Assembly: GCA_017519005.1 (NCBI GenBank)
Contig: JAFWTG010000054.1
Location: forward strand, 1-47,465
Length of the DNA stretch: 47,465 nt
From: Oscillospiraceae bacterium
Lineage (GTDB): Bacteria > Bacillota > Clostridia > Oscillospirales > Oscillospiraceae
Direction of reading: 5' to 3'
Translations under genes and position numbers: made by a program
Part shown: piece after piece, positions 121-40,961 of the stretch
Layout of the letters: each line of letters starts with the position of its first letter
How positions within the stretch are numbered: the first letter of the stretch is position 1
The notes under the pieces: model-generated
What the model saw: the letters and a program-made list of their open reading frames with translations, nothing else
The model's database searches: none
What the model was told of the DNA's origin: nothing

Positions 121-149
121 CCTTCAATCAAATATTAGTATAAAAACAG

Positions 150-194
150 AAAAACACGCTCCGTTGACCGATTCGGTCAGCGGAGCGTGTTTTT
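150..194 (-). terminator. Intrinsic terminator of the MATE-NRPS-STAS-phosphatase operon
   Basis: A stem of about 20 bp (AAAAACACGCTCCG..CC paired with GG..CGGAGCGTGTTTTT, one wobble pair) closes on a five-base loop at 170-174. On the minus strand it is followed by a T-rich tract. It starts 8 bp past the stop codon of the phosphatase gene, and the symmetric A and T runs could let it work in both directions. Confidence 0.9.
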
Positions 195-202
195 GTTGCC
201 GA

Positions 203-2158
203 TTATTCCGTGGAGAACCACAGGCTCAGGCGGTTTTCGTCCGCCCGGCGCTCGTAGGTCATGGAGCGGGCGGTCTGGTGGATGATGCCCAGGCCCATGC
301 CGCCCTCGCTCATAGACTCAAAGGATTCCGGCTCCTTGGGCTCCACCGTGGGATCGAAGGGAATGCCGTCGTCGGAGAAGTCCGCCCGCAGCTGCTCGCC
401 CTCCAGGCGGCAGCGGAAGCGGAGCCGCTTGGCGCCGGAGTAGGAGACGACGTTGGTCAGCAGCTCGTCGCAGGCCAGCAGGGCAAGGCGGGCCGCCGGG
501 CTCTGGCCCAGCAGGGAGAAGACCCGTTTCTTGACGGTCTCAAAGGACGCCAGCTCCAGGGGCAGCTCCTCCCAGTCGGAGTCGCTGTTCTGCATGCGGC
601 GCAGGGCCAGAATGGCCTGATCGTCAAACTGGTCGCCGCCGCCCACGAAGGCGTCCAGGGCGGCAGACACCGCATCCAGCGTCCCGGCGGCGGTGCTGCC
701 GGCAGGCAGGGACGCGCCCAGCGCCAGGAGCCGCTCCTCCCCGAAGAAGCCGGAGCGCTCGCTGCGGGCCTCCGTGAGACCGTCGGTATAGAGCAGGATT
801 CCGGCGCCGGGGGCGAAGCGCATTTGCTCCTCCACGATGCCCGCGTCCTCAAAGAGGCCCAAGGCGATGCCCGGTTCCGGGCTCAACAGCTCCGCGTCGG
901 CGCCGAAGAGCAGGGGCCGGGTGTGGCCGGCGTTGGCATAGCGGAACTCGCCGGTGGCCGGGTCCAGAACGCCCACGAAGACCGTGGCGAAGAGCCCCTC
1001 GGGGTTCATGCCGCAGAGCGCGTCGTTGGCCGCGTTGAGCGCCGCCGCGGGCCCCAGGCCGGAGAGCAGCTTCTCCCGCAGCAGGGTCTTGGCGGAGGAC
1101 ATGAACATGGCCGCGGAGACGCCCTTGCCAGAGACGTCGCCCACCAGCGCGCAGACCTTGCCGTCCCGGTCAAAGCAGTCGTAGAAGTCGCCGCCCACCA
1201 TGCGGGTGGGGCGGGAGATGGCGGCAAGCTCCCAGCCGGGACCCTTCAGGTCTGTGCGCTCGGGCACGAGACCCTGTTGGATGCGCCGGGCCACCTCCAT
1301 CTGCACGTCCGCCTCCAGCTGCTGCTTGGTCAGATCGCCGATGCGGGCCAGATAGTCGTTGATGTCGCTGCGCATCTTCTCAAAGGATTCGGAGATCTCC
1401 AAGATCTCTCCCACGGAGTTGATCGCCAGCGGCTCCGGGTTCTTGTCCCGGTCCGCCACGAAGGAGTTCATCCGGGCGGAGATCTTCCGAATGGGCTGGA
1501 CGACCCGCCGCGTCACCAGAAGCAGCAGAACCACGTAGGCCAGCAGCATGGACAGCAGAATGGGGATCAGCTGCCGCATCGTCCGCTGGAACAGGAGCCT
1601 CTGCGTCACCTGGAAGCCGAAGTCGGCGCCGATCATGGCGGCGATCTCGCCGTTCACGTCCCGATAGGGGACGATCCAGGTCAGCTCCTTCCCGTTTTCA
1701 TTATCGGTGGTGACGAGGGCCGCGTCCAGTTCGCCGTCCAGGATTCGATGCTCATCCTTCCCCAGCTGGACCTCGATCTGCGTGCCGGAAGCGCGGGTCT
1801 CCTGGACGGTTTTGTCGGCCTCGTCGTCGGAGGCCACGCAGACCAGGTACGTGATGGACTGTCGGTCCTCCGCCACGACGTAGACGTAGAGATAGTCCAT
1901 CTCAAAAACCTGGCACAGCTTGCGCATGGTGTCGCGGTCAAAGGCGTAGGCCATCCCGAAGCCCTTGCGGGACGTGCCGAAGCCGGAATGAGAGAGGCTT
2001 CGCTGCGTCAGCGCGGCGCAGTCCATCGCCCGGATTTTGCGTTCCTCCAAAGAACTCTTGCGGAAATCATACCAGCTCCACAGGCAGGTGGCGGCCACGG
2101 AGACCGCCAGAACCACCGCGAAGCTGAGCGCCAGCCAGCGGCGCAGCGTGCGGGTCAT
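203..2158 (-). CDS. Membrane SpoIIE/PP2C-type phosphatase fused to a HATPase (anti-sigma kinase-like) domain
   Basis: This 651-residue protein is a likely sensor of a partner-switching system. TM1 lies near residues 10-30, followed by an extracytoplasmic region to about 195, TM2 to about 215, a HAMP-like linker (RRVVQPIRKIS), a PP2C/SpoIIE domain around 275-500 with GGDFYDCFD and GDVSGKGVSAAMF, and a C-terminal GHKL ATPase with N-box CDELLTNVVSY, FSDDGIPFDP and GGMGLGI. In the known scheme the phosphatase dephosphorylates a STAS antagonist and the HATPase phosphorylates it or binds a target; here both sit in one chain. The gene overlaps the preceding STAS gene by 4 bp (ATGA), so the two are translationally coupled. 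No sigma factor gene is nearby, so the final target is unknown. Confidence 0.88.
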   Translation of the reverse strand: MTRTLRRWLALSFAVVLAVSVAATCLWSWYDFRKSSLEERKIRAMDCAALTQRSLSHSGFGTSRKGFGMAYAFDRDTMRKLCQVFEMDYLYVYVVAEDRQSITYLVCVASDDEADKTVQETRASGTQIEVQLGKDEHRILDGELDAALVTTDNENGKELTWIVPYRDVNGEIAAMIGADFGFQVTQRLLFQRTMRQLIPILLSMLLAYVVLLLLVTRRVVQPIRKISARMNSFVADRDKNPEPLAINSVGEILEISESFEKMRSDINDYLARIGDLTKQQLEADVQMEVARRIQQGLVPERTDLKGPGWELAAISRPTRMVGGDFYDCFDRDGKVCALVGDVSGKGVSAAMFMSSAKTLLREKLLSGLGPAAALNAANDALCGMNPEGLFATVFVGVLDPATGEFRYANAGHTRPLLFGADAELLSPEPGIALGLFEDAGIVEEQMRFAPGAGILLYTDGLTEARSERSGFFGEERLLALGASLPAGSTAAGTLDAVSAALDAFVGGGDQFDDQAILALRRMQNSDSDWEELPLELASFETVKKRVFSLLGQSPAARLALLACDELLTNVVSYSGAKRLRFRCRLEGEQLRADFSDDGIPFDPTVEPKEPESFESMSEGGMGLGIIHQTARSMTYERRADENRLSLWFSTE

Positions 2159-2448
2159 GCCTCGATGCGGAGACGGCGATCCAGACCTGTCATGCGGATC
2201 ACGTTTTGGATCTCGCTGCTGACGTTCCGAAGCGTCAGATTTCCGCGCAGCTTCTTGTGGGCGGCTACCAGCTGCCGCAGGCCGGCGGAGGAGACGTACT
2301 CCACCTCGGCCAGGTCCAGGGTCAAAGCCTCGGTCTCAGGAGCCAGCTCATTCAGCGCGGCCTCCAGCTCGGGAGCGGATTGGGTGTCCAGCCAGCCGCT
2401 GAGCTTCCATTCCGCCCGGGCGCCTTCCGTGTTTTTTTCAATGGTCAT
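2155..2448 (-). CDS. STAS-domain anti-sigma-factor antagonist
   Basis: A single 97-residue STAS domain of SpoIIAA/RsbV type. The segment VEYVSSAGLRQLV carries the serine that is phosphorylated in this family. It lies 30 bp after the NRPS stop codon and overlaps the phosphatase/HATPase gene by 4 bp, which makes it the obvious substrate of that protein. A ribosome site (AGGAGGAATTGCA before the ATG) supports the start. By family, its phosphorylation state decides whether it captures an anti-sigma-like partner. Its place inside a biosynthetic operon suggests feedback control of the pathway or of its export, which is an inference. Confidence 0.88.
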   Translation of the reverse strand: MTIEKNTEGARAEWKLSGWLDTQSAPELEAALNELAPETEALTLDLAEVEYVSSAGLRQLVAAHKKLRGNLTLRNVSSEIQNVIRMTGLDRRLRIEA

Positions 2449-2478
2449 TGCAATTCCTCCTTTGTTGTGTCGGGACGA

Positions 2479-5400
2479 TCAAAGATCTTCTTCAAACATT
2501 TCCAGCTCGTCCAGAGCCTTCAGCATCTGGACGATGTAGGTCTCGCCGGTGACGGGCCACTTGAAGCCCAGCCGGTAGAGCGCGTTGGTGGTGAAATCAC
2601 AGTCCGCGCCCAGGATGTAGCGCCGCTCCGCGCCTTCCTTGCTTTCGTAGGCGATCAAAGCGCCGCCGGCGCTGCCGGCCTGCGCCATGCGCTGGGCGAA
2701 CTCCTCGTCCTCCACGGTCTCCATGTCGAAGCCGTAGGCCCGCATGGCGTAGAGAATGTCCGCAAAGGTGACGGTGTGATTGTTGATGGGGTGGAAGACC
2801 GTGAATGCCTTGTCCGTTCCGGCCAGCAGCAGAATGGCCTCGGCGGTCATGTCGATCTCGGAGAAGTCCGTGACCGCGTTGAGCAGGGAGTAGGGGATCG
2901 CGCCAATGGCCTTGTAGCTGGCCAGGGAGCGGATAAAGGCGTTGCTGCGGAAGTTCACCTGGAACTCGCCGTCGGAATGGCGGCCCATCAGGTTGCCCAG
3001 ACGGGCGATCTTGGCGTCAAGCCCCCGGCCCACGGCCTCCAGAATAGCCCGCTCCGCCTTGAACTTGGAGTGGATGTAGGCGTTGTCCAGCAGCTGGCCC
3101 CGATAGAGTTCCCGCTCGCTGATGCACCAGTCTCTGGGCGGCTCGCCGTCCAGACCCTCGCCTGCCACGCTGACCGTGGAGGTCAGCACCAGCCGGCGGC
3201 CGGTCTTCTCGCACAGGGCAATCAGGTTTTCCACACCCCGGACGTTGACCTGCTCCAGGCTGTCGTCCTTGACGAAGTGCTTCACCAGGGCGGCGCAGTT
3301 GATGCAGGTGTCGAAGGGAACCTGTGCGGCGGCGGCCACGGCAGCCGCGTCCGTCACGTCGCCGGGGACGACGGCCACCCGGCCCTCGTCCAGCCAGCGA
3401 TCCAGCGGCTCCTCAAAGTAGTAGTAGTACAGCTCCTTCAGCCGGGCCAGGGGCTGCTCGCCCCGCAGCAGGCAGTAGGCGGTGCCGTCGTAGTTGTGCA
3501 GGTATTCCCGCAGCACGTGGATGCCCAGGAAGCCGGAGGCGCCTGCCAGCAGGATGCTGCCGATCTCGCCCCTGCGGATCTCCCGCAGGTAGTCGGCGCT
3601 GTTGTGGGAGAGGTCCAGGGCGCTGTAGTCGTAGCTCCGGATCTCGTCCTGGGCGTCCGCGTCGGCGGCCTGTCCCTCCCCGGCGGCCATGGCCGCCAGG
3701 GCCTTGGGCGTCTGCGCCTTGAAGATGTCGGCGTAGACGATGGGATAGCCCTTGTCCGCCGCGTTCATGGCGATGATGGCGGCGGAGAGGGAGGTGCCGC
3801 CCAGCTCGAAGAAGTTGCCGTCGGCGCTGACCTTATCCAGGTTCAGCAGCTCCGCGAACCAGCCGCAGAAGTCGGCCTCCACGGCGTTGCCCGGCGCCAC
3901 GTAGGCGCTGAGGTCCGGCTTGTACTCCACCTTGGGCAGGCGCTTCTTGTCGATCTTGCCGTTCTGGGTAAGGGGCATTTCCGGCAGCTGCATCAGCACG
4001 CCGGGGACCATGTAGGCCGTCAGGGTCTTGGAGATCACGGCCTTAACCTCGGCGGGGTCCAGCTCCCGGCTGGCGGTGTAGTAGCCCGCCAGGAAGCGGT
4101 TGTTCTCCTCGCCGGTCATCACGACGATGCTGGTCAGCACGTCTGGGCAAGCGTTGATGGCGCTTTCAATCTCGCCCAGCTCCACCCGCAGGCCGCGGAG
4201 CTTCACCTGGTTGTCGGTGCGGCCCCGGAAGCGGAGCCGTCCGTCGGAGGTCCAGGCGGCCACGTCGCCGGTGCGGTAGGCCTTGTGCCCGTTCAGCGTG
4301 AAGAATTTTTCCGCGGTCAGCTCGGGCCGGGCCACGTAGCCCAGGCCCACGCCGTCGCCGGCGATCACCAGCTCGCCCGGGACCAGCGGCGGCAGGATAG
4401 CGCCCTGCTCGTCGAGGATATAGGCCTGCACGTTGGAGGCCGGACGGCCGATGGTGATCATGCCGGGGTCCGTCACCTGGTCCATGGTGCAGCTGATGGT
4501 GGCCTCGGTGGGGCCGTAGCCGTTCATGATGTAGGCCTCGGGGTTGAGGGCCAGAATCTTGCCGTAGAGGGCGGCGGGGAAGGCCTCCGCGCCGAAGTCG
4601 TAGGACTTCACGTTTTGCAGGGCCTCCTTCATCACCGGCAGACCGATGCAGTTGGAGAGGAAGGAGGGGGTGCAGCTCATCATGTCCACGCGGTTTTCCG
4701 TCATAAAGCGGGCCAGGGCGGCGGGATTGTGGATCTCCTCCTCGGTGGTCATGCAGACGGTCATGCCGTGGGCCAGGGGGATGAATTCCTCCATGACGGA
4801 GACGTCGAAGGTGATGGCGGCCAGAGCCAGGGAGACGCTGGCCCGCTCCGTATAGCCCAGAATCTCCGGGTTCTTCTCATTGGCGTCCAGGAAGTTCAGC
4901 AGGTTGCGCTGGGTGAGCAGCACGCCCTTGGGCTTGCCGGTGGAGCCGGAGGTAAAGATGCAGTAGGCCAGGTCGTCCGGCTGTACGGGCAGATCGGGGT
5001 TCTCCGGGTTCGGGTTCTTCAGCAGCTCCTCCACCGCCACCACCGGGCAGGCCAGGGAGCGCAGGAAGCTCTCCCGCTCCGCCAGCAGGGCCTCGGTGAC
5101 CACCAGCACGGCGGATTCGGAGTCCTCCGCCATCACCCGCACCCGCTCGTCGGGGTAGCTCGGATCAATGGAGAGGAAGGCGGCCCCGGCCTTCAGGATG
5201 CCCTGGCGGACCATATAGACGTATTCGCAGCGGGGCAGCATCAGCGAGACGATGCGGCCCACGGCGCCCAGCGCCATCAGCGCGTGGGCAATGCGGTTGG
5301 CGCTCTCGTTCAGCTCGCCGTAGCTGACCCGGGCGCTGGGGGTGATGACGGCCATCCGCTCGGGATGCTTCGCCGCGTTCTCCTCCAGGAGGCAGCGCAC

Positions 5401-8400
5401 GGGGCGGAAGGGTACGGGCCAGTCGGTTGCGTTGATCTCCCGGAGGAAGGACTCGCCCGCCGGGGAGAGCAGCTTCAGCTCCTTCAGGGTCTGTCCGGCC
5501 AGCATCCCCTGAAGGATCATGCCGTAGAGCTCGGCCATCCAGCGGGTCTGCGCCTCGGTGAAGAGATCCTCCCGGTACTCGAAGGAGACGCTGTAGACCC
5601 CGTCCTTCTTCCACACGTCCACGCTCATGGGCGCCTTGGCGTCCTCAAAGGGCTGGGGAATCTCGGCGGCCTTCTGGCCGGCTACGGTGAAGCCGGTGAA
5701 GGCGTCGCCCTGGTAGGCGAAGAGCACGTCGGCGTTCACGTCGTAATCCCGCACCGCCTCGGCGAAGGAATACAGATCGTTGGCGGTCAGCTCCTGGATG
5801 CGCTTCTGCACGTCCCGGATGAAGTCGCAGGCGTTCCGGTTCGGGTCCGCGAAGAGGTAGATGGGGTAGGTCTTCACCAGCATACCCATGATTCGCAGGG
5901 TCTCGGTCCGGGTGCGGCCGTTGTAGATGGAGGCGAAGAGCGCCTCGTCGGAGCCGTTCATCCGGGCCAGCAGATAGCCGAAGGCCGCGGTGAAGAGGGC
6001 GTTTTCGGTCAGCTTGTGCTCCTTGCAGAAGGCCAGGACCCGCTCCGGCGTCACGTCGGGCAGTCCGTGCTCCGCCGCCGCGGCCCTGCCGGTGCCTTCC
6101 TTGGGGGCGGCGCGCTCCGGCGCGGGCAGAGAGGCGACGCTGACGCCGCTGAAGATGCCGTCATAGACGGCCTTGGCCTTGGCCAGAGCGTCGGTCTCGC
6201 GGCGCTGCTTCTCGTCCAGAGCCAGCTGCAGGCCGTTGTAGCTCTCGGGCTTCAGGGTTTCGCCCTGCCAGGCCCGCTCAATGTCCTCCATCAGTACGGC
6301 CACGGAGCTGCCGTCCATGAGAATGTGGTGGAAGACCATGTGGAGGTACAGGGCGTCGGCGGTCCGGATCAAGCGGAAGCGGAAGAGCGGGGCCCGGGCC
6401 AGCTTGAAGACCACAGACTCAAAGCGAAGCTGCCGCTCCAGCGCCTCGCCGTCCAGCGGGGAGTCCTCAATGGGGAGCTCCCATTCCAGCTCGGGATGGG
6501 CGATCATCTCCGCGCCGCCGGTCTTGGAGGGCTCCACGGAGCACTTCATGGCGGGGTGGGCCTCCACGGCGGCCCGGATGGCCGCGGCCAGGCGCTGGGC
6601 GTCGGTGTCCCGGCTGAGCTTCAGCAGGAAGGGAATGTTGTATTTATCGCTGGTTTCATCCATCCGGCACTCCAGATAGATGCCCAGCTGGGTCTGGGTC
6701 AGAGGCGCGGAGCGGATTTCCTCCGGGGCGGCCTCGGGGGCCTCCTCCGCGGGCTTTGCCCCGCGCCAGTGGGCCACCAGGGCGTTTTCAATGTCCAGGA
6801 CCCGCATGCCCTGGAGCAGCTCGCTGACCTCGGGGCTGTAGCCGTAGGCCTGTTCCAGCTCCACCATCAGCTGCATGGTGGAGATCGAGGTGAGGCCGGC
6901 GTCGGTCAGCACCGTGCCGACGCCGAAGCCGGTGCTGCCGATGACCCCCGCGCAGAGCTTCATCAGCTCCTGCTCCAGGGCGGTCAGCTCCCGGTCTGCG
7001 CCGTGCTCCTCCTCGGCGGGCTTCCGCTCGGGCTTGGGCAGGCGGCGCTTGTCAACCTTCTGGTTCTGGTTCAGGGGGATGGCGTCCAGCTCCATGATGA
7101 CGGCGGGGACCATGTAGGGCGGCTTGCGCTGGCGGATGAAGCTCTCCAGCTCGCCGGGGGCGACGCTCTGTCCCTGCTTTACGACGATATAGGCCGCCAC
7201 GTATTTGCCGCTGCCGCTCTCGTTGTCGAAGGCCTGGACGGTCACGTCCTCCACGGCCGGGAAGTCCCGGATCACCGCCTCGATCTCCGAGAGCTCGATG
7301 CGGAAGCCGCGGATCTTGACCTGGCCGTCGCTGCGGCCGATGAAGTCGATCTCGCCGTTGGGAAGGAAGCGGACTGTGTCGCCGATGTGATAGACCCGGT
7401 CGCGGCCCTCCTCGCTGCAGAAGGGATTGGCAGTGAAGCTCTCGGCGTTCTTCTCGGGCCGGTTCAGATAGCCCCGGCCCACGCCGCGGCCGGCGATCCA
7501 CAGCTCGCCCGGCACGCAGGGGGGCACGCGCCGGCCCTGCTTGTCCACCACGTAGAGGGCGGCGTTGGCAAAGGAAGCGCCGATGGGAATGCGCAGATAG
7601 TCCCGATCCACCAGCTTCCTGGTGACAAAGATGGTGCATTCCGTGGGACCGTAGACGTTATAAAGCTCCAGCCCCTCCTGGGGGGAGGTGGGCGCCAGCT
7701 TTTCGCCGCCCACCGACAGGGCCCGCAGGCAGGCGGGCCGATAGGGCGACACGGCAAACTGCCGTCCCACCTGGGTGGTCATAAAGGCCACGCTTACGTT
7801 GTGCTCCGCCCAGTAGGCGCCCAGGGCGGGCAGGTTCAGCCGAAGCTCCTCGGGCACTACGCAGACGCAGCCGCCGCCGGTGAGGGCGGGGTAGAGGTCC
7901 ATCATGTTGGCGTCGAAGCCGTAGCTGGCGTAGGCGCCGTGGACGGTGCCCTCCGTCATTCCGTAGGCCTCGCGGTACCAGCGGCAGAAGTTGACCAGAT
8001 TGCCGTGCTCCAGGATCACGCCCTTGGGCACGCCGGTGGAGCCGGAGGTATAGAGCAGGGTGAAGGCGTCATGGCCGTCGGGGGTCGGGAGCGTCTCTCC
8101 CGCAGGCAGCTTCGGCAGCGCGGGGACCTCCTTCGTCAGCAGGAATTCGCCGTCCCAGCCGGCCAGCAGGCCGGTCAGGTCCTCGTCGGCGATGACCAGG
8201 GCGGCCGCGGCGTCCTGGACCATGAAGACCAGACGCTCGGGGGGATAGGAGGGGTCCAGCGGCTGATAGGCCGCGCCGGATTTCAGCACCGCCAGGGAGG
8301 CGATGACCATATATTCGTTTCGATGGATCAGAACGGAGACCACGCCGCCGCGCCTGATGCCCCGCTGCCGCAGGGCCCAGGCGATCCGGTCGGAGGCCTC

Positions 8401-9801
8401 GTCGATCTCCCCGTAGCGCAGGGTCAGATCCTTGATGATCAGGGCGGGGGCGTTGGGCAGCTTTTTCGCCTGGGCGCGGAAGAGGGAGATCACGTCGTTG
8501 GGGCCGCTGATCGGCTCCTGGCCGGGGATGAAGCTGTCCAGCAGGGCCAGCTGCTCCTTCGAGGTGACGTCGATCTCCTGGAAGCGTTCCCGACAGAGGA
8601 ACTCCAGGACCGTTTTGTCAAAGGAGGCGGCAAAGCTGGCGATGCTCTCCGGCTCGTAGAGGTCGGTCCGGTAGGAGAGCCGCAGCAGATAGCCGCCCCG
8701 GCTCCGGAACACCTCCGCCAGCAGCTCGTCCTTGGGGTCGTCGCTCTGGACGACCTCCGGAACGAGACTCCCGCCCAGGAACTCCATCTTCGTCTCCAGG
8801 TCGCCCTGGTAGGCGAAGAGCGTCGGAACGCTGAGGCGGAAGCGGGAGCAGGCGTCCGCGAAGGAGAAAAGGCCGTTTTCCCGGCTCCCGCGGAGCTGTT
8901 CGTCCAGGGCCTTCAGATGCTCGGCCACGGATTCCTCGCCGCGGAAGCGCTCCAGCACCGGGAAGGTCTTGACGAACATACCGATGTCGTTCAGAGTCTC
9001 CGGGCTGCGTCCGTTGTGGATGGAGGCGTAGAGGGCCTCCTCCGTGCCGGAGAAGCGGCTGAGCAGCCAGCCGTAGACGCCGGTAAAGAAGCTGCTGGTT
9101 TTCACGCCCAGGCCGTGGACAAAGTCGGAAAGGGCCTTGGCGTCCACGGTCAGCGGCAGGGTCAGGAAGGCGTTCTTCGGCTCGCCGCTCTCCTTGTCGT
9201 GGATGGGGGCGCTGCAGAGCTCCGCGTCGGAGAGCAGGGCGTCGTACCAGGCCTCCGCCTTCGTGAAGGCCTCCGTCTGGCGGGCCTCCTGCTCCCGGCG
9301 GGCCAGGTCCGCGGCGCTGAGGGTTTCACCCAGAGGGGCTTCCCCGGCGTAGGCGCGGTTGAGCTCGCGGATCAGGACCGCCGTGGAGCTGCCGTCAAAG
9401 AGAATGTGGTGGAAGTCCACGAAGAGATAATCCCGCTCGCTTCCGTGGAGAATGTTCAGGCGGTACAGCGGCTCCTCCGGGTCGGAGAAGGGACGCACCA
9501 GCCGGGAGAGCTCCGGCTCGCCGCGGCTCTCGTCGATGCTGACCGGAAGCTCCTCCGGCCTGCCGCTGGGCGTCAGCCGCTTCACGCTTCCGTCCGCCTC
9601 CATGCGGAAGCGGGACAGCACGCAGGGATGCGCCCGCAGCGTGTCCCGCAGGGCGGCGCGAAGCCGCTCCGTGTCCGTCCCCTCCGGGAGGGGGAAGAGG
9701 AAGGGAAGGTTGTAGGCCGTTCCCTGCGGATTTTTCCGCCAATCCAGATAGATCCCCAGTTCCGTCATGGAAACGGGAGAGACGATCCATTCCATGCTCA
9801 T
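2479..9801 (-). CDS. Dimodular nonribosomal peptide synthetase, C-A-T-C-A-T-R, with terminal thioester reductase
   Basis: This 2440-residue enzyme has condensation domain 1 with HHILFDG near residue 131; adenylation domain 1 with YTSGSTGVPKG near 584; carrier 1 with the phosphopantetheine serine in GLTSIS near 972; condensation domain 2 with HHILMDG near 1159; adenylation domain 2 with FTSGSTGKPKG near 1619; carrier 2 with ELGGTSLS near 2003; and a reductase with GASGFLG near 2088 and YIHSK near 2243. There is no thioesterase, so the dipeptidyl thioester should be released reductively as an aldehyde. The leading C domain suggests N-acylation of the first residue. Related gut clostridial enzymes make dipeptide aldehydes that can cyclise to (dihydro)pyrazinones. 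The ATG overlaps the MATE stop codon, with AGGAGG 8 bases before it. No phosphopantetheinyl transferase is in the window. Confidence 0.93.
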   Translation of the reverse strand: MSMEWIVSPVSMTELGIYLDWRKNPQGTAYNLPFLFPLPEGTDTERLRAALRDTLRAHPCVLSRFRMEADGSVKRLTPSGRPEELPVSIDESRGEPELSRLVRPFSDPEEPLYRLNILHGSERDYLFVDFHHILFDGSSTAVLIRELNRAYAGEAPLGETLSAADLARREQEARQTEAFTKAEAWYDALLSDAELCSAPIHDKESGEPKNAFLTLPLTVDAKALSDFVHGLGVKTSSFFTGVYGWLLSRFSGTEEALYASIHNGRSPETLNDIGMFVKTFPVLERFRGEESVAEHLKALDEQLRGSRENGLFSFADACSRFRLSVPTLFAYQGDLETKMEFLGGSLVPEVVQSDDPKDELLAEVFRSRGGYLLRLSYRTDLYEPESIASFAASFDKTVLEFLCRERFQEIDVTSKEQLALLDSFIPGQEPISGPNDVISLFRAQAKKLPNAPALIIKDLTLRYGEIDEASDRIAWALRQRGIRRGGVVSVLIHRNEYMVIASLAVLKSGAAYQPLDPSYPPERLVFMVQDAAAALVIADEDLTGLLAGWDGEFLLTKEVPALPKLPAGETLPTPDGHDAFTLLYTSGSTGVPKGVILEHGNLVNFCRWYREAYGMTEGTVHGAYASYGFDANMMDLYPALTGGGCVCVVPEELRLNLPALGAYWAEHNVSVAFMTTQVGRQFAVSPYRPACLRALSVGGEKLAPTSPQEGLELYNVYGPTECTIFVTRKLVDRDYLRIPIGASFANAALYVVDKQGRRVPPCVPGELWIAGRGVGRGYLNRPEKNAESFTANPFCSEEGRDRVYHIGDTVRFLPNGEIDFIGRSDGQVKIRGFRIELSEIEAVIRDFPAVEDVTVQAFDNESGSGKYVAAYIVVKQGQSVAPGELESFIRQRKPPYMVPAVIMELDAIPLNQNQKVDKRRLPKPERKPAEEEHGADRELTALEQELMKLCAGVIGSTGFGVGTVLTDAGLTSISTMQLMVELEQAYGYSPEVSELLQGMRVLDIENALVAHWRGAKPAEEAPEAAPEEIRSAPLTQTQLGIYLECRMDETSDKYNIPFLLKLSRDTDAQRLAAAIRAAVEAHPAMKCSVEPSKTGGAEMIAHPELEWELPIEDSPLDGEALERQLRFESVVFKLARAPLFRFRLIRTADALYLHMVFHHILMDGSSVAVLMEDIERAWQGETLKPESYNGLQLALDEKQRRETDALAKAKAVYDGIFSGVSVASLPAPERAAPKEGTGRAAAAEHGLPDVTPERVLAFCKEHKLTENALFTAAFGYLLARMNGSDEALFASIYNGRTRTETLRIMGMLVKTYPIYLFADPNRNACDFIRDVQKRIQELTANDLYSFAEAVRDYDVNADVLFAYQGDAFTGFTVAGQKAAEIPQPFEDAKAPMSVDVWKKDGVYSVSFEYREDLFTEAQTRWMAELYGMILQGMLAGQTLKELKLLSPAGESFLREINATDWPVPFRPVRCLLEENAAKHPERMAVITPSARVSYGELNESANRIAHALMALGAVGRIVSLMLPRCEYVYMVRQGILKAGAAFLSIDPSYPDERVRVMAEDSESAVLVVTEALLAERESFLRSLACPVVAVEELLKNPNPENPDLPVQPDDLAYCIFTSGSTGKPKGVLLTQRNLLNFLDANEKNPEILGYTERASVSLALAAITFDVSVMEEFIPLAHGMTVCMTTEEEIHNPAALARFMTENRVDMMSCTPSFLSNCIGLPVMKEALQNVKSYDFGAEAFPAALYGKILALNPEAYIMNGYGPTEATISCTMDQVTDPGMITIGRPASNVQAYILDEQGAILPPLVPGELVIAGDGVGLGYVARPELTAEKFFTLNGHKAYRTGDVAAWTSDGRLRFRGRTDNQVKLRGLRVELGEIESAINACPDVLTSIVVMTGEENNRFLAGYYTASRELDPAEVKAVISKTLTAYMVPGVLMQLPEMPLTQNGKIDKKRLPKVEYKPDLSAYVAPGNAVEADFCGWFAELLNLDKVSADGNFFELGGTSLSAAIIAMNAADKGYPIVYADIFKAQTPKALAAMAAGEGQAADADAQDEIRSYDYSALDLSHNSADYLREIRRGEIGSILLAGASGFLGIHVLREYLHNYDGTAYCLLRGEQPLARLKELYYYYFEEPLDRWLDEGRVAVVPGDVTDAAAVAAAAQVPFDTCINCAALVKHFVKDDSLEQVNVRGVENLIALCEKTGRRLVLTSTVSVAGEGLDGEPPRDWCISERELYRGQLLDNAYIHSKFKAERAILEAVGRGLDAKIARLGNLMGRHSDGEFQVNFRSNAFIRSLASYKAIGAIPYSLLNAVTDFSEIDMTAEAILLLAGTDKAFTVFHPINNHTVTFADILYAMRAYGFDMETVEDEEFAQRMAQAGSAGGALIAYESKEGAERRYILGADCDFTTNALYRLGFKWPVTGETYIVQMLKALDELEMFEEDL

Positions 9802-11156
9802 TGTGTGCTCCTCCTTCTATGTTGAGCTTGTTTCAGCAAGCTGAAGCTGACGATCAGCGCCAGGGCCTGGGCCGCGACCCAGCTGAACCAGATGCCCTCG
9901 GTGCCGAAGCAGGCCACCAGCAGCAGCAGCGCGGCGATCAGGAAGACCGAGCCGCTGCACAGAGAGATCAGCAGGGCCCTGCCGACCTTCTCCTGGGCCT
10001 GGAAGTAGTACATGATGATGCTGTTGAGCCCGATCAGCGGGATCGAGAGGGCGTAGATGCGGATACCGGACAGGGACAGGGACAGCAGCGCTCCCTCCCG
10101 GATGGAAAAGAGCCTGGAGATGAGGCCGGCCCCGACAGCATACAGGACCGCCAGCCCCAGGGTGCCGATCAGCTCCAGCCGGACGCCGTGGCGGAAGGCC
10201 TGCCGGATGCGCTCCGGGAGCTTCGCGCCGGTGGCGGCGGCCAGGATGGGCTGCGCAGCCTGCCCCACGCCGTCATAGACCGCCATGGAGGTCATGGACA
10301 GCTGGGTAATCACGCCGAAGACCGTCACGTAATCCTCGCTGCCCACCCGAATGACGGTGTTGTTGAAAATATTGGTGGAGACGGTCATTCCCAACTGGGA
10401 GGCCGCCAGCGGGATCCCGGCCCGCCACATCCGGAGCCCCCGGCCCCGCAGGCAGCCGCGCAGGAATCGCAGTGTGTTTTGTTTGCTGAGGAAATGGGTC
10501 AGGTTCACCCCCATGCCGACAGTATAGGCCAGGCAGGTAGCCAGGGCAGCGCCCCGGGGACCCAGCTTCAGCGGACCCACAAAGAGAATGTCCAGCGCCA
10601 GGTTCGTCACCGCGCAGGAAAGCGTTGCCGCCAGGACCCGGTTCGGGTCGTTGTCCACGCGGACGAAGAAGAGCAGATGGACGTAGACCATCAGAGGAAT
10701 CATAAAGAAGAACAGGACGTGAACGTATTCCGTCGTATCCTTCGCCAGGGCCTCATTGGCGCCGAGGAGCTTCACCACGGGGCCCGTGAAGAGCAGCCCC
10801 ACCAGGGTCAGCAGGCCGCCGCAGACCAGCATGTGGATCACGGAGGCGGAGAAATAGCGCTGGGCCTCGTCCCTGCTGCCCTCGCCCAGATACTGGGCGT
10901 AGAGGGTGGAAGCGCCGGAGGCGATCAGCATGCCCAGGGTGTTGACCAGCATATACACGGGCATACAGAGCGACACCACCGCCATCATTCCCGGCCCCAG
11001 GTAATGGGTGAGGATGATCGCGTCGATCAGGGAGGCCACCGTCGCCGTCAGCAAAGAGCCAATGGCGGAGGGAAGAAGCCGTCGGTACAAAGCCCGGATC
11101 GGGTCGTTGACGTAGTCGATTTCCCGCGCCGCCGCTGTTGATCGTTTGAAGCGCAT
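9798..11156 (-). CDS. MATE-family efflux transporter
   Basis: This is an approximately 452-residue polytopic membrane protein with the MATE start pattern: PIRALYRRLLPSAIGSLL, then LIDAIILTHYLGPGMMAVVSL, and about twelve hydrophobic segments in two halves. MATE proteins export cationic or small organic compounds using Na+ or H+. It is the first gene of the operon and overlaps the NRPS start by 4 bp, which points to export of, or self-protection from, the NRPS product. The ATG at 11156 is preferred because GGGAG lies 10 bases upstream; an in-frame ATG at 11165 is only one base from that site. Confidence 0.9.
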   Translation of the reverse strand: MRFKRSTAAAREIDYVNDPIRALYRRLLPSAIGSLLTATVASLIDAIILTHYLGPGMMAVVSLCMPVYMLVNTLGMLIASGASTLYAQYLGEGSRDEAQRYFSASVIHMLVCGGLLTLVGLLFTGPVVKLLGANEALAKDTTEYVHVLFFFMIPLMVYVHLLFFVRVDNDPNRVLAATLSCAVTNLALDILFVGPLKLGPRGAALATCLAYTVGMGVNLTHFLSKQNTLRFLRGCLRGRGLRMWRAGIPLAASQLGMTVSTNIFNNTVIRVGSEDYVTVFGVITQLSMTSMAVYDGVGQAAQPILAAATGAKLPERIRQAFRHGVRLELIGTLGLAVLYAVGAGLISRLFSIREGALLSLSLSGIRIYALSIPLIGLNSIIMYYFQAQEKVGRALLISLCSGSVFLIAALLLLVACFGTEGIWFSWVAAQALALIVSFSLLKQAQHRRRSTQ

Positions 11157-11219
11157 TGTGTACATACTCCCTTTCCGTTCACACTTGGGCGGACCGCCGG
11201 ACGGGCCGGCCCAGCTAAT

Positions 11220-11248
11220 ATTATATCATAACGCGCAGGAATTGTCAC
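11220..11248 (-). promoter_or_regulatory. Sigma-A promoter of the MATE-NRPS operon
   Basis: On the minus strand, GTGACA (-35, 11248-11243) and TATAAT (-10, 11225-11220) are separated by exactly 17 bases. Transcription would start near 11213, giving a leader of about 57 nt before the MATE start codon. No other promoter of this quality was seen within the operon. Confidence 0.75.
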
Positions 11249-13096: not shown

Positions 13097-14926
13097 TCAG
13101 GGCAGGGCCTGTGCGCCCGTCTGGGGCTCCGCGGCGGGACGGTCCAGCAGGGCGAAGTAGCGGTCCCTGGCCCGCTGGTAGGCGGCGTCGAAGGCCTCGT
13201 CGCCGCCGGCATGGAGCTTGTCAAAGTAGAGATGCTCGTGGTCGGCCAGTTCCGGATAGACGCGCACCAGGGTTGCGATGCCCACGTTGGAGCAGACGGC
13301 GCCGATCCGGCGGAACTCCACCATCAGGTTCGTGTAGGTGGAATCGGCGTAAACGTTGCACTCGCCGGTGCTCATGCGCTTCAGGTGGTTCCGCTTCAGC
13401 ACGTTGAGCAGGTCCGCGGAAACCTGGACCAGGGGCTCGATCCGCTGGGCGGCGTCCACGTCGCGCTTGCGGAAGGTCTGGTCCGTCTCGTCCAGAATGT
13501 TCATGATGGCGCTCTCCAGCACCGCCAGCTCCGAGAGCGCGGCGGCGGAGAGATGGGTGCCGTTCTTGTGGAGGGTGGCCGCCAGCTCCGCGATGTTCAC
13601 CGCGTGGTCGCCCAGGCGCTCAAATTCCGAGGTGACCTTGTAATACTGGTCCATGATGGCCACGTGGTCCTGCATCTGCAGGTGGGGCAGGAAGCTCACC
13701 AGATACTTGCTGATGCAGTCCGTCATCCGGTCGATCTCGTCCTCCTCCGCCAGAATTGTCTGATGGAGGGCGGGGTCGTATTTGTTCAGCAGCCGGAAGG
13801 ACTTCTCCGTGTTGCTCCGGGAGGCGGTAAAGACCGTCAGCAGCAGGTGATAGCAGCTCTGGAAGGCAAGGGCGGGTGTGTCAAAGAAGACCGGGTTCAG
13901 AGCGTCGGTGACGGTCTTGTACTTGCTTTCCTTCACCGGGGCGTTCTTCACGATCCGCAGGCTCATGCGCTCAAAGACGCGCAGCATGGGGATCATGGGC
14001 AGGGCGCAGGCCAGGTTGAAGACGGTGTTGGTGTTGGCGATGATGCCGGAGTTGACGGTCCGCTCCCAGAGCCCGTCCAGCAGGCCCAGCTGGTGGGCAA
14101 GGGTAACGCCAAGCAGGACCATGGCGGATTTGCAGAGGTTATAGAGAATGTTCACCACGCCAACACGCCGCGCCTCGGGCTTGGCGCCGATCCAGCAGAC
14201 GATGGCCGTGGTGACGCAGTCGCCCAGGTAGACGCCCACGATCAGCGCATAGATCGACTTGAAGGCCAGCAGGCCCGTGGCTGAAAAGGCCTGCAGGATG
14301 CCGATGGTGGCGGAGGAGCTCTGAAGCACGAAGGCCACGCCGGCGCCGGTGAGATACCCCAGGAAGGGGCTGTCGCCCAGGCTGGCGAAGAGCTTTTCGA
14401 AGGCGCCGGACTCCGCCAGATTGTTGACGGCGCCGGTCATATTCAGAAGGCCCGAGAAGAGGATGCCGAAGCCGATGGCGATGCTGCCGACGGACTTGGA
14501 GTTTTTGATGAAGCTGCCCATAATCAGCACCATACCGATGATCAGGGCGATGGGGGCCAGGGTGGAGGGCTGCAAAAAGCGCAGGAAGGTGGAACCGGAG
14601 GCGTCCACGTCCAGCAGCCGGATGATCTGCCCGGTGACGGTGGTGCCCACGTTGGCGCCCACGATGATGCCGAGAGACTGGCGCAGGCTCAGAATGCCCG
14701 CGCTGACGAGGCCGGCGGTGATGACGATGGTCGCGGTGGAGGACTGGATGAGCGCCGTCACCAGCATGCCCAGAAGAAAGGCCTTGAAGGCGTTGTCTGT
14801 CACCTTGCCCATCACGCGCTTCAGCGTGCCGGAAGAGTTTTCCTTCAGAGAGTCGCCCATGAGCCGCATGCCGTAGAGGAACATGGCCAGGCCGCCCAGC
14901 AGGGAGATTACGTCAAATATATCCAT
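13097..14926 (-). CDS. Na/Pi cotransporter family protein with C-terminal PhoU-like domain
   Basis: A 609-residue protein. The N-terminal half is a membrane domain with two inverted repeats that carry the family signatures, QSSTATIVI near residue 61 and QSSSATIGI in the second repeat, plus GANVGTTVTGQ. The C-terminal part (about 340-590) is helical and PhoU-like (LLNKYDPALHQTILAEEDEI, FERLGDHAVNIAEL). Known relatives take up phosphate with sodium, and the PhoU-like tail probably gates or senses. No strong Shine-Dalgarno sequence precedes the ATG. The gene is monocistronic between a good promoter (15012-15040) and the hairpin at 13021-13061. Substrates other than phosphate cannot be excluded. 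Confidence 0.9.
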   Translation of the reverse strand: MDIFDVISLLGGLAMFLYGMRLMGDSLKENSSGTLKRVMGKVTDNAFKAFLLGMLVTALIQSSTATIVITAGLVSAGILSLRQSLGIIVGANVGTTVTGQIIRLLDVDASGSTFLRFLQPSTLAPIALIIGMVLIMGSFIKNSKSVGSIAIGFGILFSGLLNMTGAVNNLAESGAFEKLFASLGDSPFLGYLTGAGVAFVLQSSSATIGILQAFSATGLLAFKSIYALIVGVYLGDCVTTAIVCWIGAKPEARRVGVVNILYNLCKSAMVLLGVTLAHQLGLLDGLWERTVNSGIIANTNTVFNLACALPMIPMLRVFERMSLRIVKNAPVKESKYKTVTDALNPVFFDTPALAFQSCYHLLLTVFTASRSNTEKSFRLLNKYDPALHQTILAEEDEIDRMTDCISKYLVSFLPHLQMQDHVAIMDQYYKVTSEFERLGDHAVNIAELAATLHKNGTHLSAAALSELAVLESAIMNILDETDQTFRKRDVDAAQRIEPLVQVSADLLNVLKRNHLKRMSTGECNVYADSTYTNLMVEFRRIGAVCSNVGIATLVRVYPELADHEHLYFDKLHAGGDEAFDAAYQRARDRYFALLDRPAAEPQTGAQALP

Positions 14927-15149: not shown

Positions 15150-15194
15150 TACACTGGTAAAATGTACCAAAGCAAATTGCTGTCGGAGGTGCGT

Positions 15195-17072
15195 ATGAGA
15201 AAGAGTAACCGCTCGCTGATACTGAAGCTGAACGTTCTGATTACCGCCATCGTGCTGATCGTTTCGACGGTGCTGGTCACGATCAGCTACAGCTCCTATT
15301 CGAAGTCGGTCTACGCGCCGTTTTATTCCAGACTGGATAAGGCCAAGCGCATATTGAGCGAAATTGACATGAGCAGGTCGTTTGATCATATCTACCAGTG
15401 TTCGCAGGCAGACGGGTTTGCGGCGTTTCGCGCCGAGGCGTTGAAGCAGAAACCCGAGGACCCGGATATGGATGAATGGCTGAAACAGTTTCTGGTCTCC
15501 AGCCTGAACGACGAGCTGATGCAAAAATCTGAGTACGATGCCAGAATGGAGGAGCTGACTGCGGAGGCCGAGCGGGCAGGGATCGCGGAGGAGAACCTGG
15601 AGGAATGGATTCGGGAACGGGACCCCGCGATCGCCTCTGTCCTTTTCGACGTGAACAACGAGTATTTCCAATCCAGCTATTCGTTGAGTTCCATTTTGGA
15701 GCAGTCCGGATGCTCCCACATAACGGTCTACGCGGAGGACGCCGGCGGATACGTTCAGTTGATTGAATGTTTTGACACCTATTCGAGCTTCACACATGAT
15801 GATTCGCTCATCTGGACCTTCCAAAAATACGGCGAGCGGTATCTGAACGTCGAAGCAATCAGAGCATTCAGGGAGAAGCAGACGGACGAAGCCTTTCGGT
15901 ATGATTCCGAGGACGGCGCGGAGTTGGCCAGAATCATTTCGTTCGAACGGGACGGGCGGCAATTCTACATCGTCTTCGCCTGCGGGATCACGGAAGTGTT
16001 GGACGGGCAGCGCGCCTTTCTCTTCAGGAGTCTTGCGCTGATCGGACTCATGGTAGTCGTGGCCATTGCCATCAGCCTGCTGATCCTGCGCCGCATCGCC
16101 ACCAAGCCTCTGCGGGAGCTGACGGAGGCCGTGGGCGAGTTCAACGTCAAAGAGGACGGCACCGGGGAAGAACGGGTCATTGAACTGGACATCAAATCCC
16201 GGGACGAGATCGGAGACCTCTACCGCAACTTCCGCGCCATGCAGACCCGTATCATCGAGAACACGGAAAGTCTCACCCGGATGACCGCCGAAAAGGAGCG
16301 CATCTCCACGGAGTTGGATCTGGCGACCCGCATCCAGGAGGATATGCTGCCCAACGTCTTCCCGCCCTTCCCGGATCGAAAGGAATTCGATATCTACGCC
16401 AGCATGGACCCGGCCAGGGCGGTCGGCGGCGATTTCTACGACTTCTTCCTGATCGACGACGATCATCTGGCCCTGGTCATGGCGGACGTTTCCGGCAAGG
16501 GCATCCCCGGGGCCCTGTTCATGATGATCTCCAAGATCATGGTACAGAACGTAGCCATGACCGGACTCTCCCCGGCAAAGACGCTGGAGGCGGTGAACCG
16601 CCAGATCCTGGTCAACAACCGGGAGGAGATGTTCGTCACCGTCTGGCTGGGCATTCTGGAGATCTCCTCGGGCAGACTGACTGCCGCCAACGCAGGGCAC
16701 GAGTACCCGGTGCTGATGCAGCCGGGGAGCGGCTTCAGCCTCTTTAAGGACAAGCACGGCTTCGTGATCGGCGCAATAGAGGGGATGGAGTATCAGGATT
16801 ACGAGCTGCAGCTGCGGCCCGGCGCGAAGCTCTTTGTCTATACCGACGGCTTGCCGGAGGCCGCTGACCGGGAGGACAGACAGTTCGGCATCGAAAGAAT
16901 GCTGATCGCGCTGAACCGGGGCCGCAACGGTACGCCGGAGCAGATCCTGGGCTGCGTCCGGGAGGCGGTGGACGCTTTCGTGGGCGAGGCCGAGCAATTT
17001 GACGATTTGACGATGCTCTGTCTGGAGTATCGGGGCAAGGAGGATACGGAACATGAAGGAACTGACGGTTGA
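15195..17072 (+). CDS. HAMP-linked SpoIIE/RsbU-type PP2C phosphatase, membrane sensor
   Basis: This 625-residue sensor phosphatase has TM1 near residues 12-34, a large extracytoplasmic region to about 275, TM2 to about 300, a HAMP domain with a coiled segment to about 385, and a PP2C/SpoIIE domain with GGDFYDFFLIDDDH near 410 and MADVSGKGIPGALF. Metal-binding aspartates are present, and an LYTDG-like segment (FVYTDGLPEA) lies near the end. By family it removes phosphate from a STAS protein when an external signal is sensed. The ATG at 15195 has GGAGGT five bases upstream; an in-frame ATG at 15162 has no ribosome site. Its end overlaps the HATPase gene by 20 bp. Confidence 0.9.
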   Translation: MRKSNRSLILKLNVLITAIVLIVSTVLVTISYSSYSKSVYAPFYSRLDKAKRILSEIDMSRSFDHIYQCSQADGFAAFRAEALKQKPEDPDMDEWLKQFLVSSLNDELMQKSEYDARMEELTAEAERAGIAEENLEEWIRERDPAIASVLFDVNNEYFQSSYSLSSILEQSGCSHITVYAEDAGGYVQLIECFDTYSSFTHDDSLIWTFQKYGERYLNVEAIRAFREKQTDEAFRYDSEDGAELARIISFERDGRQFYIVFACGITEVLDGQRAFLFRSLALIGLMVVVAIAISLLILRRIATKPLRELTEAVGEFNVKEDGTGEERVIELDIKSRDEIGDLYRNFRAMQTRIIENTESLTRMTAEKERISTELDLATRIQEDMLPNVFPPFPDRKEFDIYASMDPARAVGGDFYDFFLIDDDHLALVMADVSGKGIPGALFMMISKIMVQNVAMTGLSPAKTLEAVNRQILVNNREEMFVTVWLGILEISSGRLTAANAGHEYPVLMQPGSGFSLFKDKHGFVIGAIEGMEYQDYELQLRPGAKLFVYTDGLPEAADREDRQFGIERMLIALNRGRNGTPEQILGCVREAVDAFVGEAEQFDDLTMLCLEYRGKEDTEHEGTDG

Positions 17073-17460
17073 GGCGACCATCGGGAATATTCCCGCCGTT
17101 ACGGATTTTGTGGACGAGGAGCTGGAGACGCTGGGCTGTTCCCCGCGGATCCAGGCGCAAATCAATATCGCCATCGACGAGCTGTTCAGCAACATTGCCC
17201 ATTACGCCTACAATCCTTCCACCGGTCCGGCCACCGTCCAGGTGGAGGTGGAGAAAAACCCCCTGGCCGTGGTTGTGACCTTCATCGACCGGGGCAAGCG
17301 CTACGATCCGCTCAGCGCCCGGGAACCGGATCTGAGTCTGGACCTGGCGCAGCGTCCCGTGGGCGGCCTCGGCATTTTCCTGGTCCGCAAGACGATGGAC
17401 AACGTGAGCTACGAATACAGGGACGGGCGCAACATCCTTCGCATCAAAAAACAGATCTGA
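17053..17460 (+). CDS. HATPase-domain serine kinase / anti-sigma-type switch protein
   Basis: A 135-residue protein made of one GHKL ATPase domain of SpoIIAB/RsbW type. The N-box AIDELFSNIAHYAY, the G1 segment IDRGKRYDP and the G2 segment VGGLGIFLVRK are all intact. By family it phosphorylates the partner STAS domain and may bind a sigma factor or another target. It overlaps the phosphatase gene by 20 bp and lies 14 bp before the STAS-kinase gene, so all three are surely one transcript. No sigma factor is encoded nearby. Confidence 0.9.
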   Translation: MKELTVEATIGNIPAVTDFVDEELETLGCSPRIQAQINIAIDELFSNIAHYAYNPSTGPATVQVEVEKNPLAVVVTFIDRGKRYDPLSAREPDLSLDLAQRPVGGLGIFLVRKTMDNVSYEYRDGRNILRIKKQI

Positions 17461-17474
17461 TACTGGAGCTTGCT

Positions 17475-18650
17475 ATGAACTACAATTACGAAGACCGGGT
17501 TCTGAGAATCTGTCCGGAGGGACGCATCGACGCCGCTGGAACGAACGAGCTGACGGAGCAGATGAAGCGCCTGCTGGACGCGCATCCCGCAGAGCGGGTC
17601 GAGCTGGACCTGGAACGGGTGGTATATATTTCCAGCGCTGGCCTGCGGGTGATCCTGCGGCTGCGGCAGGCGGTTCCGAATACCGCCTTGGTGAACGTTT
17701 CCTCGGAGGTTTACGAAATTCTGGACGTGACCGGCTTTACAGAGATAATGGAGGTCCGGCGGGCCTACCGGACCGTCTCGGTGGAGGGCTGCGAGATCGT
17801 CGGCTGCGGTGTCAACGGCAGAGTCTACCGGCTTTCGCAGGACACGGTGGTCAAGGTCTATCAGAATCCCCAGGCCCTGGAGGAAATGCAGCGGGAGCGG
17901 GAGCTGGCTCGCACGGCCTTCGTGCTGGGGGTCCCCACGGTCATCCCCTACGACGTGGTCAAAATCCAGGGCGGCGGCTACGGCTCCGTCTATGAGCTGC
18001 TGAACGCCACCAATTTTGCCAAGCTGCTGATCCGGGGAGAGAGAACGCTGGACGAGGTGGCCTGCATGAGCGTCGAGCTGCTGAAGATCATCCACGGCAC
18101 GACGGTCAACCCGGACACGACGCCCTCCGCGCGGGAGCAGGCCCTGAGCTGGGCGGAGGATCTGAAGCGCGTTCTGCCCGCGGCGCAGTATGAGGCACTG
18201 CGCGGGCTGATCGCCGCCGTTCCCGAGGACAACCGCCTCCTGCACGGGGATTATCATATCCGAAACGTCACGCGGCAGGGCGAGGAAAACCTGATTCTGG
18301 ACCTGGATACCCTCTGCCACGGCCATCCGATCTTTGAGCTGGGCTCCATGTACAACGCCTACCGGGGCTTTTCCGAGCTGGAGCCCGGGGCTGTGGAGCG
18401 CTACCTGGGCATTGATCTGGAGACTGCCCATGCATTCTGGCGCAGGACCCTGGAGCGCTATCTGGACACGGAGGACGACCAACGGATTCGCGAAGTGGAG
18501 GACAAGGCCGCGGTGCTGGGCTTTACCCGGCTGCTGCGCCGCAGAATCCGCCGCGGCGGCTTCGACAGCGAGCAGGGCCGTGCCGAGATCGAGCGCTGCC
18601 AAGCCCTCCTGGCGGAACGGCTGTCCCGGGTGGAGAGTCTGGTTTTTTGA
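17475..18650 (+). CDS. STAS domain fused to an aminoglycoside-phosphotransferase-like kinase domain
   Basis: A 391-residue two-domain protein. Residues 1 to about 100 form a STAS antagonist domain with the phosphorylatable serine region VVYISSAGLRVIL. Residues about 110-390 form an APH/choline-kinase-like fold with a glycine-rich VGCGVNGRVYRLS, a candidate ATP lysine in VVKVYQ, the catalytic loop LLHGDYHIRNV and the metal aspartate in LDLDTLCHGHP. Stand-alone kinases of this type occur in clostridia and Fibrobacter; their substrate is unknown to me. The fusion puts a second, different kinase onto the switch protein. The third gene of the operon, it ends at a strong terminator. Confidence 0.85.
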   Translation: MNYNYEDRVLRICPEGRIDAAGTNELTEQMKRLLDAHPAERVELDLERVVYISSAGLRVILRLRQAVPNTALVNVSSEVYEILDVTGFTEIMEVRRAYRTVSVEGCEIVGCGVNGRVYRLSQDTVVKVYQNPQALEEMQRERELARTAFVLGVPTVIPYDVVKIQGGGYGSVYELLNATNFAKLLIRGERTLDEVACMSVELLKIIHGTTVNPDTTPSAREQALSWAEDLKRVLPAAQYEALRGLIAAVPEDNRLLHGDYHIRNVTRQGEENLILDLDTLCHGHPIFELGSMYNAYRGFSELEPGAVERYLGIDLETAHAFWRRTLERYLDTEDDQRIREVEDKAAVLGFTRLLRRRIRRGGFDSEQGRAEIERCQALLAERLSRVESLVF

Positions 18651-40912: not shown

Positions 40913-40961
40913 GTAATAAGGAAAAGCATGGTTCATTGCTGATTCCATACAGTCGGATGAT

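Follow-up and report, generated by a model that had tools for sequence, protein, structure and literature searches.

A peptide synthetase operon of an Oscillospiraceae bacterium with its own partner-switching module and metabolite export as a candidate output

The 47,465-nucleotide stretch of DNA analysed here (the window) is the whole of contig C58 (JAFWTG010000054.1) of an Oscillospiraceae bacterium, whose 2.29-Mb draft genome consists of 141 contigs. At the contig end lies a four-gene unit on the minus strand (positions 203–11165) encoding a MATE exporter, a non-ribosomal peptide synthetase (NRPS), a STAS protein and a membrane SpoIIE-HATPase fusion, with about 140 bp remaining past the terminator (Table 1). 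An earlier note, made from the sequence alone, had described this unit as an NRPS operon with a built-in partner-switching module, and each of the four parts was indeed assigned by Pfam. The compact arrangement that it described was found at the same coordinates, with 4-bp overlaps at the MATE/NRPS and STAS/phosphatase junctions and a 30-bp NRPS-STAS spacing that contains an AGGAGG site; this spacing suggests that the four genes are co-transcribed. The single promoter of that description is a consensus match, and a lead only, because three sigma-70-type sites of such quality occur in 14 kb, compared with 1.4 in shuffled sequences. None of 200 shuffles folded as well as the terminator hairpin, which is missing from a consensus terminator scan and whose U run is paired in the fold.

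Table 1. Features of the four-gene unit and their positions in the window
Feature	Position	Strand	Basis
MATE exporter, 455 aa	9798..11165	-	Pfam MatE 131.4 bits; TIGR00797 150.0 vs cut-off 147.4
NRPS C-A-T-C-A-T-R, 2440 aa, AusA-like	2479..9801	-	Pfam, NCBIfam
STAS protein (anti-sigma-antagonist type), 97 aa	2155..2448	-	Pfam, NCBIfam
Membrane SpoIIE-HATPase fusion, 651 aa	203..2158	-	Pfam HAMP + SpoIIE + HATPase_c_2
Predicted extracytoplasmic sensor region, aa 27-196, between two membrane spans	1571..2080	-	hydropathy
SpoIIE/PP2C phosphatase domain, conserved Asp residues	596..1165	-	PF07228 162.4 bits
HATPase_c_2 domain, N box DELLTN, G1 DDGIPFDP, G2 GGMGL; kinase type	221..481	-	Pfam, motifs
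Promoter-like site GTGACA-17-TATAAT, TG before -10	11220..11248	-	consensus match, 11/12
Hairpin terminator 3' of phosphatase gene	141..194	-	fold -34.8 kcal/mol, z -6.1

The characteristic motifs of a partner-switching module are intact in the switch proteins of the window. The STAS protein scores 56.4 bits against TIGR00377 (cut-off 53.45) and falls below the cut-off of the SpoIIAA equivalog TIGR02886 (29.5 bits vs 114.75). Its predicted phospho-acceptor is Ser54 (YVSSAGLR), at what we take to be the position like Ser58 of SpoIIAA, and a Ser is found there in 55 of 55 aligned STAS proteins. The phosphatase domain belongs to the SpoIIE/PP2C type and has all the conserved Asp residues; it stays below the cut-off of the SiaA equivalog NF038263 (49.7 bits vs 700). 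Across 44 aligned rows, the Asp residues of GDVSGKG, DGLTEA and FDDQ were conserved in 43, with a gap in the remaining one, and the GGDFYD Asp in 40. The HATPase_c_2 domain (PF13581, 42.1 bits vs 27.4) keeps its N, G1 and G2 boxes. With these motifs intact, both phosphorylation and dephosphorylation of the STAS protein may be expected. Hydropathy predicts spans at residues ~8–26 and ~197–215 of the fusion with ~170 residues between them and a HAMP domain after, in agreement with the extracytoplasmic sensor region that the earlier note had proposed. No Pfam sensor family matched this region in the window protein, and one of 11 aligned proteins gave a weak dCache_1 match (best E 0.0011).

The synthetase has two Condensation, two AMP-binding and two PP-binding domains and a NAD_binding_4 domain by Pfam, that is, a dimodular layout of condensation (C), adenylation (A) and thiolation (T) domains with a terminal reductase (R), and no extra domain. 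Two HHxxxDG motifs, two carrier Ser residues and a reductase YxxxK were recognized by eye in the protein sequence. AusA is the top NCBIfam model, although the protein does not reach its cut-off (NF047350, 999.7 bits vs 2500). The exporter has the MatE repeats and exceeds the TIGR00797 cut-off; it ends at residue 455 without a HATPase match by Pfam and so does not have the C-terminal HATPase_c_2 domain of the MATE-HATPase fusions described below.

The conservation of the switch genes was examined beside relatives of the NRPS, of which 288 were found in one genome-contig scan and the best 80 taken as loci (numbered with the prefix L). Switch genes were sought with hidden Markov models (HMMs) grown from the window proteins, and these are incomplete, as the HATPase HMM missed a SpoIIAB-like gene of L116 that Pfam detects; moreover, many locus flanks are cut by contig ends. 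Within the fetched flanks, STAS genes were present in 46 and SpoIIE genes in 39 of the 80 loci, and at least one of STAS, SpoIIE and HATPase in 61, counts that contradict the possibility, raised by the earlier note, that homologous NRPS loci always lack these genes. Where each flank reached 6 kb or more, a switch part was present in 40 of 45 loci (STAS in 29, SpoIIE in 27). When the loci were clustered at 60% NRPS identity, a switch part was found in 17 of 20 clusters and STAS in 12. STAS density reached 0.096–0.100 per kb within 2.5 kb of the NRPS compared with 0.005 at 6–10 kb, a 20-fold difference, and 47 of 48 STAS hits and 39 of 40 SpoIIE hits lay on the NRPS strand. Chance neighbourhood was rejected on the basis of this distance fall-off, the strand bias and the cluster counts. 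By the phylum labels of the records, which may be wrong for metagenome-assembled genomes, a switch part occurred in 37/48 Bacillota, 20/26 Bacteroidota and 3/3 Spirochaetota loci, in one of two unlabelled loci and not in the single archaeal one.

The order MATE-NRPS-STAS-SpoIIE-HATPase is repeated in L013, L014 and L016, whose NRPSs share 72, 73 and 69% identity with that of the window. Full-length NRPS genes were found in three of 24 genomes of the window's genus, and in the other two (42–43% identity) STAS and SpoIIE-HATPase genes adjoin the NRPS. The genome of the window has 11 SpoIIE and five STAS_2 matches (four of the five over the cut-off), and because there are five STAS_2 matches, the chance of a STAS gene within 10 kb of a random point is estimated at ~4%. 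Among four synthetase loci of the order that are more distantly related, one, L163, has switch genes. In a single-sequence search of 68 SpoIIE open reading frames, including stretches fetched around the genome's 11 SpoIIE matches, relatives of the sensor region occurred solely in NRPS-locus phosphatases (L013, L014, L016, L037, L055 and L058, and weakly L091, E 0.051). The region may sense something tied to the pathway, or may merely travel with it.

In many of these relatives the exporter itself carries a switch domain. A MATE protein with a C-terminal HATPase (at about residues 480–600) is encoded in 36 of the 80 NRPS loci, in 32 of the 36 less than 100 bp from the NRPS and on the same strand. 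Cultured commensals are among the carriers, with a MATE-HATPase in Sporofaciens musculi (L053) and one in Petralouisia muris (L075). Five fusion proteins were submitted to Pfam; all exceeded the cut-off for MatE as well as that for HATPase_c_2, the latter by a narrow margin in two cases (29.3 and 28.6 vs 27.4). Because the fusion is repeated across these loci and in another 17 genomes of the order, misassembly was rejected as an explanation. The window's genome encodes a MATE-HATPase of its own, on contig C4, with both domains detected by Pfam. The window represents a second layout, in which the MATE is plain and the HATPase is on the phosphatase. A SpoIIE-HATPase fusion was found in 13 of the 14 plain-MATE loci that have SpoIIE, whereas fused-MATE loci with SpoIIE had separate SpoIIE and free HATPase genes in 14 of 16 cases and SpoIIE-HATPase in two (p 2e-5, uncorrected for shared ancestry). 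The MATE of L025 was rejected as a plain exporter, being cut by a contig end; this locus is still in the MATE tree and in the layout table, where it stands among loci without SpoIIE and so outside the 14. In the midpoint-rooted MATE tree, 11 plain Bacteroidota exporters grouped, with support, with three fused Prevotella proteins inside a larger fused set, a nesting that suggests loss of the HATPase domain in these plain exporters; the four window-type plain MATEs formed a separate group on a long branch of unsure placement. STAS genes had as neighbours (<150 bp, same strand; n=66) SpoIIE-HATPase in 25 cases, MATE-HATPase in 14, NRPS in 13 and plain MATE in none, and 13 adjoined none of the searched genes; these classes overlap, and the 66 include both window sets, L113–L118 and L143–L162.

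A comparison of HATPase types set the MATE-fused domains apart. The GGxG lid motif, counted as a register-free pattern, was kept by all 58 HATPases that are phosphatase-fused, free-standing or STAS-APH-fused and by five of 65 MATE-fused ones; a partial free-standing row and two of other kinds were excluded. The N-box pattern was present in 53/53 phosphatase-fused and free-standing, 5/5 STAS-APH-fused and 47/65 MATE-fused domains. Aligned MATE-fused rows kept the catalytic-type Glu in 42 of 45 cases and had the first G2 glycine in none and the second in one, with a GG pair in another register in 18 of the 45; a near-total loss of the G2 glycines, as the alignment alone would have it, is thus softened by the register-free count. 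In a quick tree of this short domain, the MATE-fused HATPases occupied one side of a branch with a support of 97 in the Shimodaira-Hasegawa-like approximate likelihood-ratio test (SH-aLRT). Judged from these features, a role as STAS receiver seems to suit the MATE-fused HATPase better than one as kinase.

The fused exporter also occurs outside NRPS loci. When genomes were searched with a MATE-type HATPase profile, 46 of the 245 from the order gave matches at E 1e-12, a permissive cut-off at which other HATPases are included as well, and six of 299 genomes across the phylum matched at 1e-20, the window's own genome counted. Within the genus, 11 of 24 genomes matched at 1e-15 with frames of 585–665 aa, both domains being confirmed for the window genome's own protein alone; all three NRPS-bearing genomes and eight of the 21 others were among them, an association that is not significant (p 0.08). 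All 20 loci then chosen from 17 genomes by score and frame length encoded MATE-HATPase fusions, and 13 had STAS, SpoIIE or another HATPase gene within stretches of 6.8–19.9 kb, in L146 and L155 on the opposite strand. None of the 20 matched the A, C or R domains of the window. Because 13 of these loci keep switch genes with no NRPS match, the exporter, more than the NRPS, appears to be the recurring partner of the switch. A GH3-family synthetase gene adjoins the MATE-HATPase gene in L157 (2198–5621, +) and in L052 (16469–19951, +); it was seen in one of the 20 MATE-HATPase loci, and such neighbours possibly represent a second class of exported product. In L144 (9437–11038, +), the MATE-HATPase gene adjoins one for a single-chain STAS-APH-HATPase protein, and the APH-fold domain recurs with the partner switch.

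We propose that the four genes form one operon in which the sensor enzyme sets the phosphorylation state of the STAS protein, and that the latter acts on an effector of the same pathway, for which the exporter is the best candidate across the family; we regard this proposal as evenly poised. The HATPase domain of the fusion would phosphorylate Ser54 and the SpoIIE domain would remove the phosphate, with the outside region between the membrane spans tilting the balance between the two activities. Unphosphorylated STAS would then move from the kinase domain to the effector, in place of an anti-sigma factor. In the fused-MATE relatives, it may bind the degenerate-lid HATPase tail of the exporter, which, by general MATE topology, is presumably cytoplasmic. 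In the layout of the window, it would need to contact the MATE or the NRPS itself, or to work in trans, the MATE-HATPase encoded on contig C4 being one possible target. Gene order, conservation and the motif and clade differences are observed, whereas phosphorylation, STAS binding and the gating of export are predictions drawn from them. The earlier note had left the output among the NRPS, the exporter and a distant regulator; since the MATE carries a switch domain in many relatives, export is now a prime candidate, although in the window itself the partner of STAS may be any of these three. A broader and more tentative proposal, which we consider quite possible, is that these systems form a new output class in which MATE exporters are gated by STAS binding to a fused receiver-type HATPase, while a sensor phosphatase and a kinase-type HATPase set the STAS state; the window would then be a case in which the receiver was lost or never joined and the kinase joined the sensor.

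Several observations weigh against these proposals. Exporter gating would be an extrapolation for the window, because its MATE has no HATPase. We are not sure that kinase activity has been lost in the MATE-fused HATPases, because five of 65 keep GGxG and 47 of 65 the N-box pattern; the GGxG cases all come from the NRPS-linked set plus the window genome's protein (5/45), and the 0/20 of the later-fetched loci is no independent lid test, as these were found by a profile of the same domain and picked by frame length. Neither STAS nor SpoIIE was found in the fetched stretch of 11 of the 36 fused-MATE loci, and no MATE was seen in the stretches of nine loci that do have STAS and SpoIIE-HATPase. Switch genes were missing from L012 (64% NRPS identity) and L015 (60%), each with one short flank, and no switch part was found in L045, L057, L061, L081 and L088 despite full flanks, or in the distant synthetase loci L164–L166 (stretches of 5.8–11.5 kb). 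The association was controlled solely by distance within the same loci. Finally, the C-A-T-R synthetase gene of L163 is flanked by STAS and SpoIIE-HATPase genes, and no MATE occurs in the 20 kb, an arrangement more in keeping with control of synthesis.

In a classical reading, which is the textbook function of such STAS/HATPase/SpoIIE sets, the STAS protein would titrate an unlinked anti-sigma factor or another transcription regulator, with the operon merely carrying its own sensor. The genome has nine HATPase_c_2 matches (seven over the cut-off) and a SpoIIA-like row of STAS, HATPase and sigma-70 genes away from the operon (contig C13, L116 3772–5770, +). As the earlier note had stated, however, no sigma gene was found by Pfam among the operon's four genes, and a search with one query family, which ECF sigma factors could escape, found no SigF-like gene in the 80 NRPS and 20 MATE-HATPase loci, where the HATPase is instead repeatedly fused to the exporter; we consider this classical output unlikely, but credible. 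Direct action of STAS on the NRPS, turning assembly on or off, would account for L163 and for the STAS genes that adjoin an NRPS gene, which lie directly upstream of it in L022, L024 and L027. The NRPS of the window, however, has no additional domain by Pfam, and the MATE-HATPase loci that keep switch genes without an NRPS match also argue against such control, which seems to us distinctly unlikely.

It is also conceivable that the genes are accidental neighbours or travel together in a mobile block with no functional coupling. The NRPS is accessory in the genus, and the nearest relatives of the phosphatase are in NRPS loci of other lineages (36–46% identity), whereas 99 related genomes gave, the window aside, only partial phosphatase matches of 30–34%, a pattern that suggests transfer as a block. 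Yet the association spans three phylum labels, two layouts and NRPS identities from 73 to ~34%, with the genes on the same strand and tightly spaced, and we hold hitch-hiking without coupling to be highly improbable. The best reading of the sequence data remains that the switch acts on export or assembly and not on a sigma factor.

In the Rsb and SpoIIA modules (RsbU-RsbV-RsbW and SpoIIE-SpoIIAA-SpoIIAB), a PP2C phosphatase and a HATPase kinase set the phosphorylation of a STAS protein. The window resembles them in its PP2C (SpoIIE) phosphatase, its STAS protein with the conserved Ser and its HATPase_c_2 kinase motifs. It differs in that the operon lacks a sigma factor and no SigF-like gene was found in the related loci, that kinase and phosphatase domains share a single membrane protein, and that synthetase and exporter genes accompany the module. 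Among solved structures, the best sequence match of the window phosphatase is Rv1364c (PDB 3ke6), a multidomain partner-switching protein with a SpoIIE-type phosphatase, STAS and PAS domains in one chain; the window, in contrast, has a separate STAS protein and a membrane sensor. The dimodular C-A-T-C-A-T-R layout of the window NRPS is common to AusA and to gut peptide-aldehyde and pyrazinone NRPSs (aureusimine, ruminopeptin). Partner switching with a non-sigma output is already known: in SiaABCD of Pseudomonas aeruginosa, SiaC directly binds the diguanylate cyclase SiaD (PMC7647112, PMC8457831), and BtrU/BtrV/BtrW of Bordetella ties a partner switch to secretion, acting on the type III secretion system (PMC8256260). 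The present systems differ from SiaABCD, whose effector is a cyclase, in their synthetase/exporter pair and in the fusion of the HATPase to the MATE in relatives, and from Btr in concerning a small-molecule exporter. The earlier note knew of no peptide-aldehyde pathway with such a built-in switch and, in the titles and abstracts returned from the open-licence literature, we likewise found neither a partner switch described for AusA-type or peptide-aldehyde-type NRPS loci nor any mention of MATE proteins fused to a HATPase.

Partner switching has been known chiefly as a means of controlling transcription. Were STAS proteins to act directly as gates for exporters or synthetases, a reactive metabolite could be released on a signal without new transcription. 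The fusion of a switch domain to the exporter in many related loci suggests that metabolite export may be turned on and off through protein phosphorylation and not through gene expression. The fused MATE-HATPase would offer a simple, testable handle on STAS gating, and could serve in genome mining to mark exporters of bioactive gut metabolites outside NRPS loci as well.

Further features were recorded in the related loci and in the window. The closely packed STAS, C-A-T-R synthetase, SpoIIE and HATPase genes of L163 (9225–15660, +) are preceded by an SDF symporter gene and followed by one for a PAD-type deiminase. A plasmid origin was considered and rejected, the phosphatase having one weak plasmid match (29.1% identity over 60%). 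The window contains a second partner-switch set (15162–18650, +), composed of a SpoIIE protein with HAMP (636 aa), a HATPase (135 aa) and a STAS-APH kinase-like fusion (391 aa), beside which lies a gene for a Na/Pi cotransporter with a PhoU domain (13097–14926, -). A glycine riboswitch aptamer is present at 40957–41037 (+, 58.7 bits).

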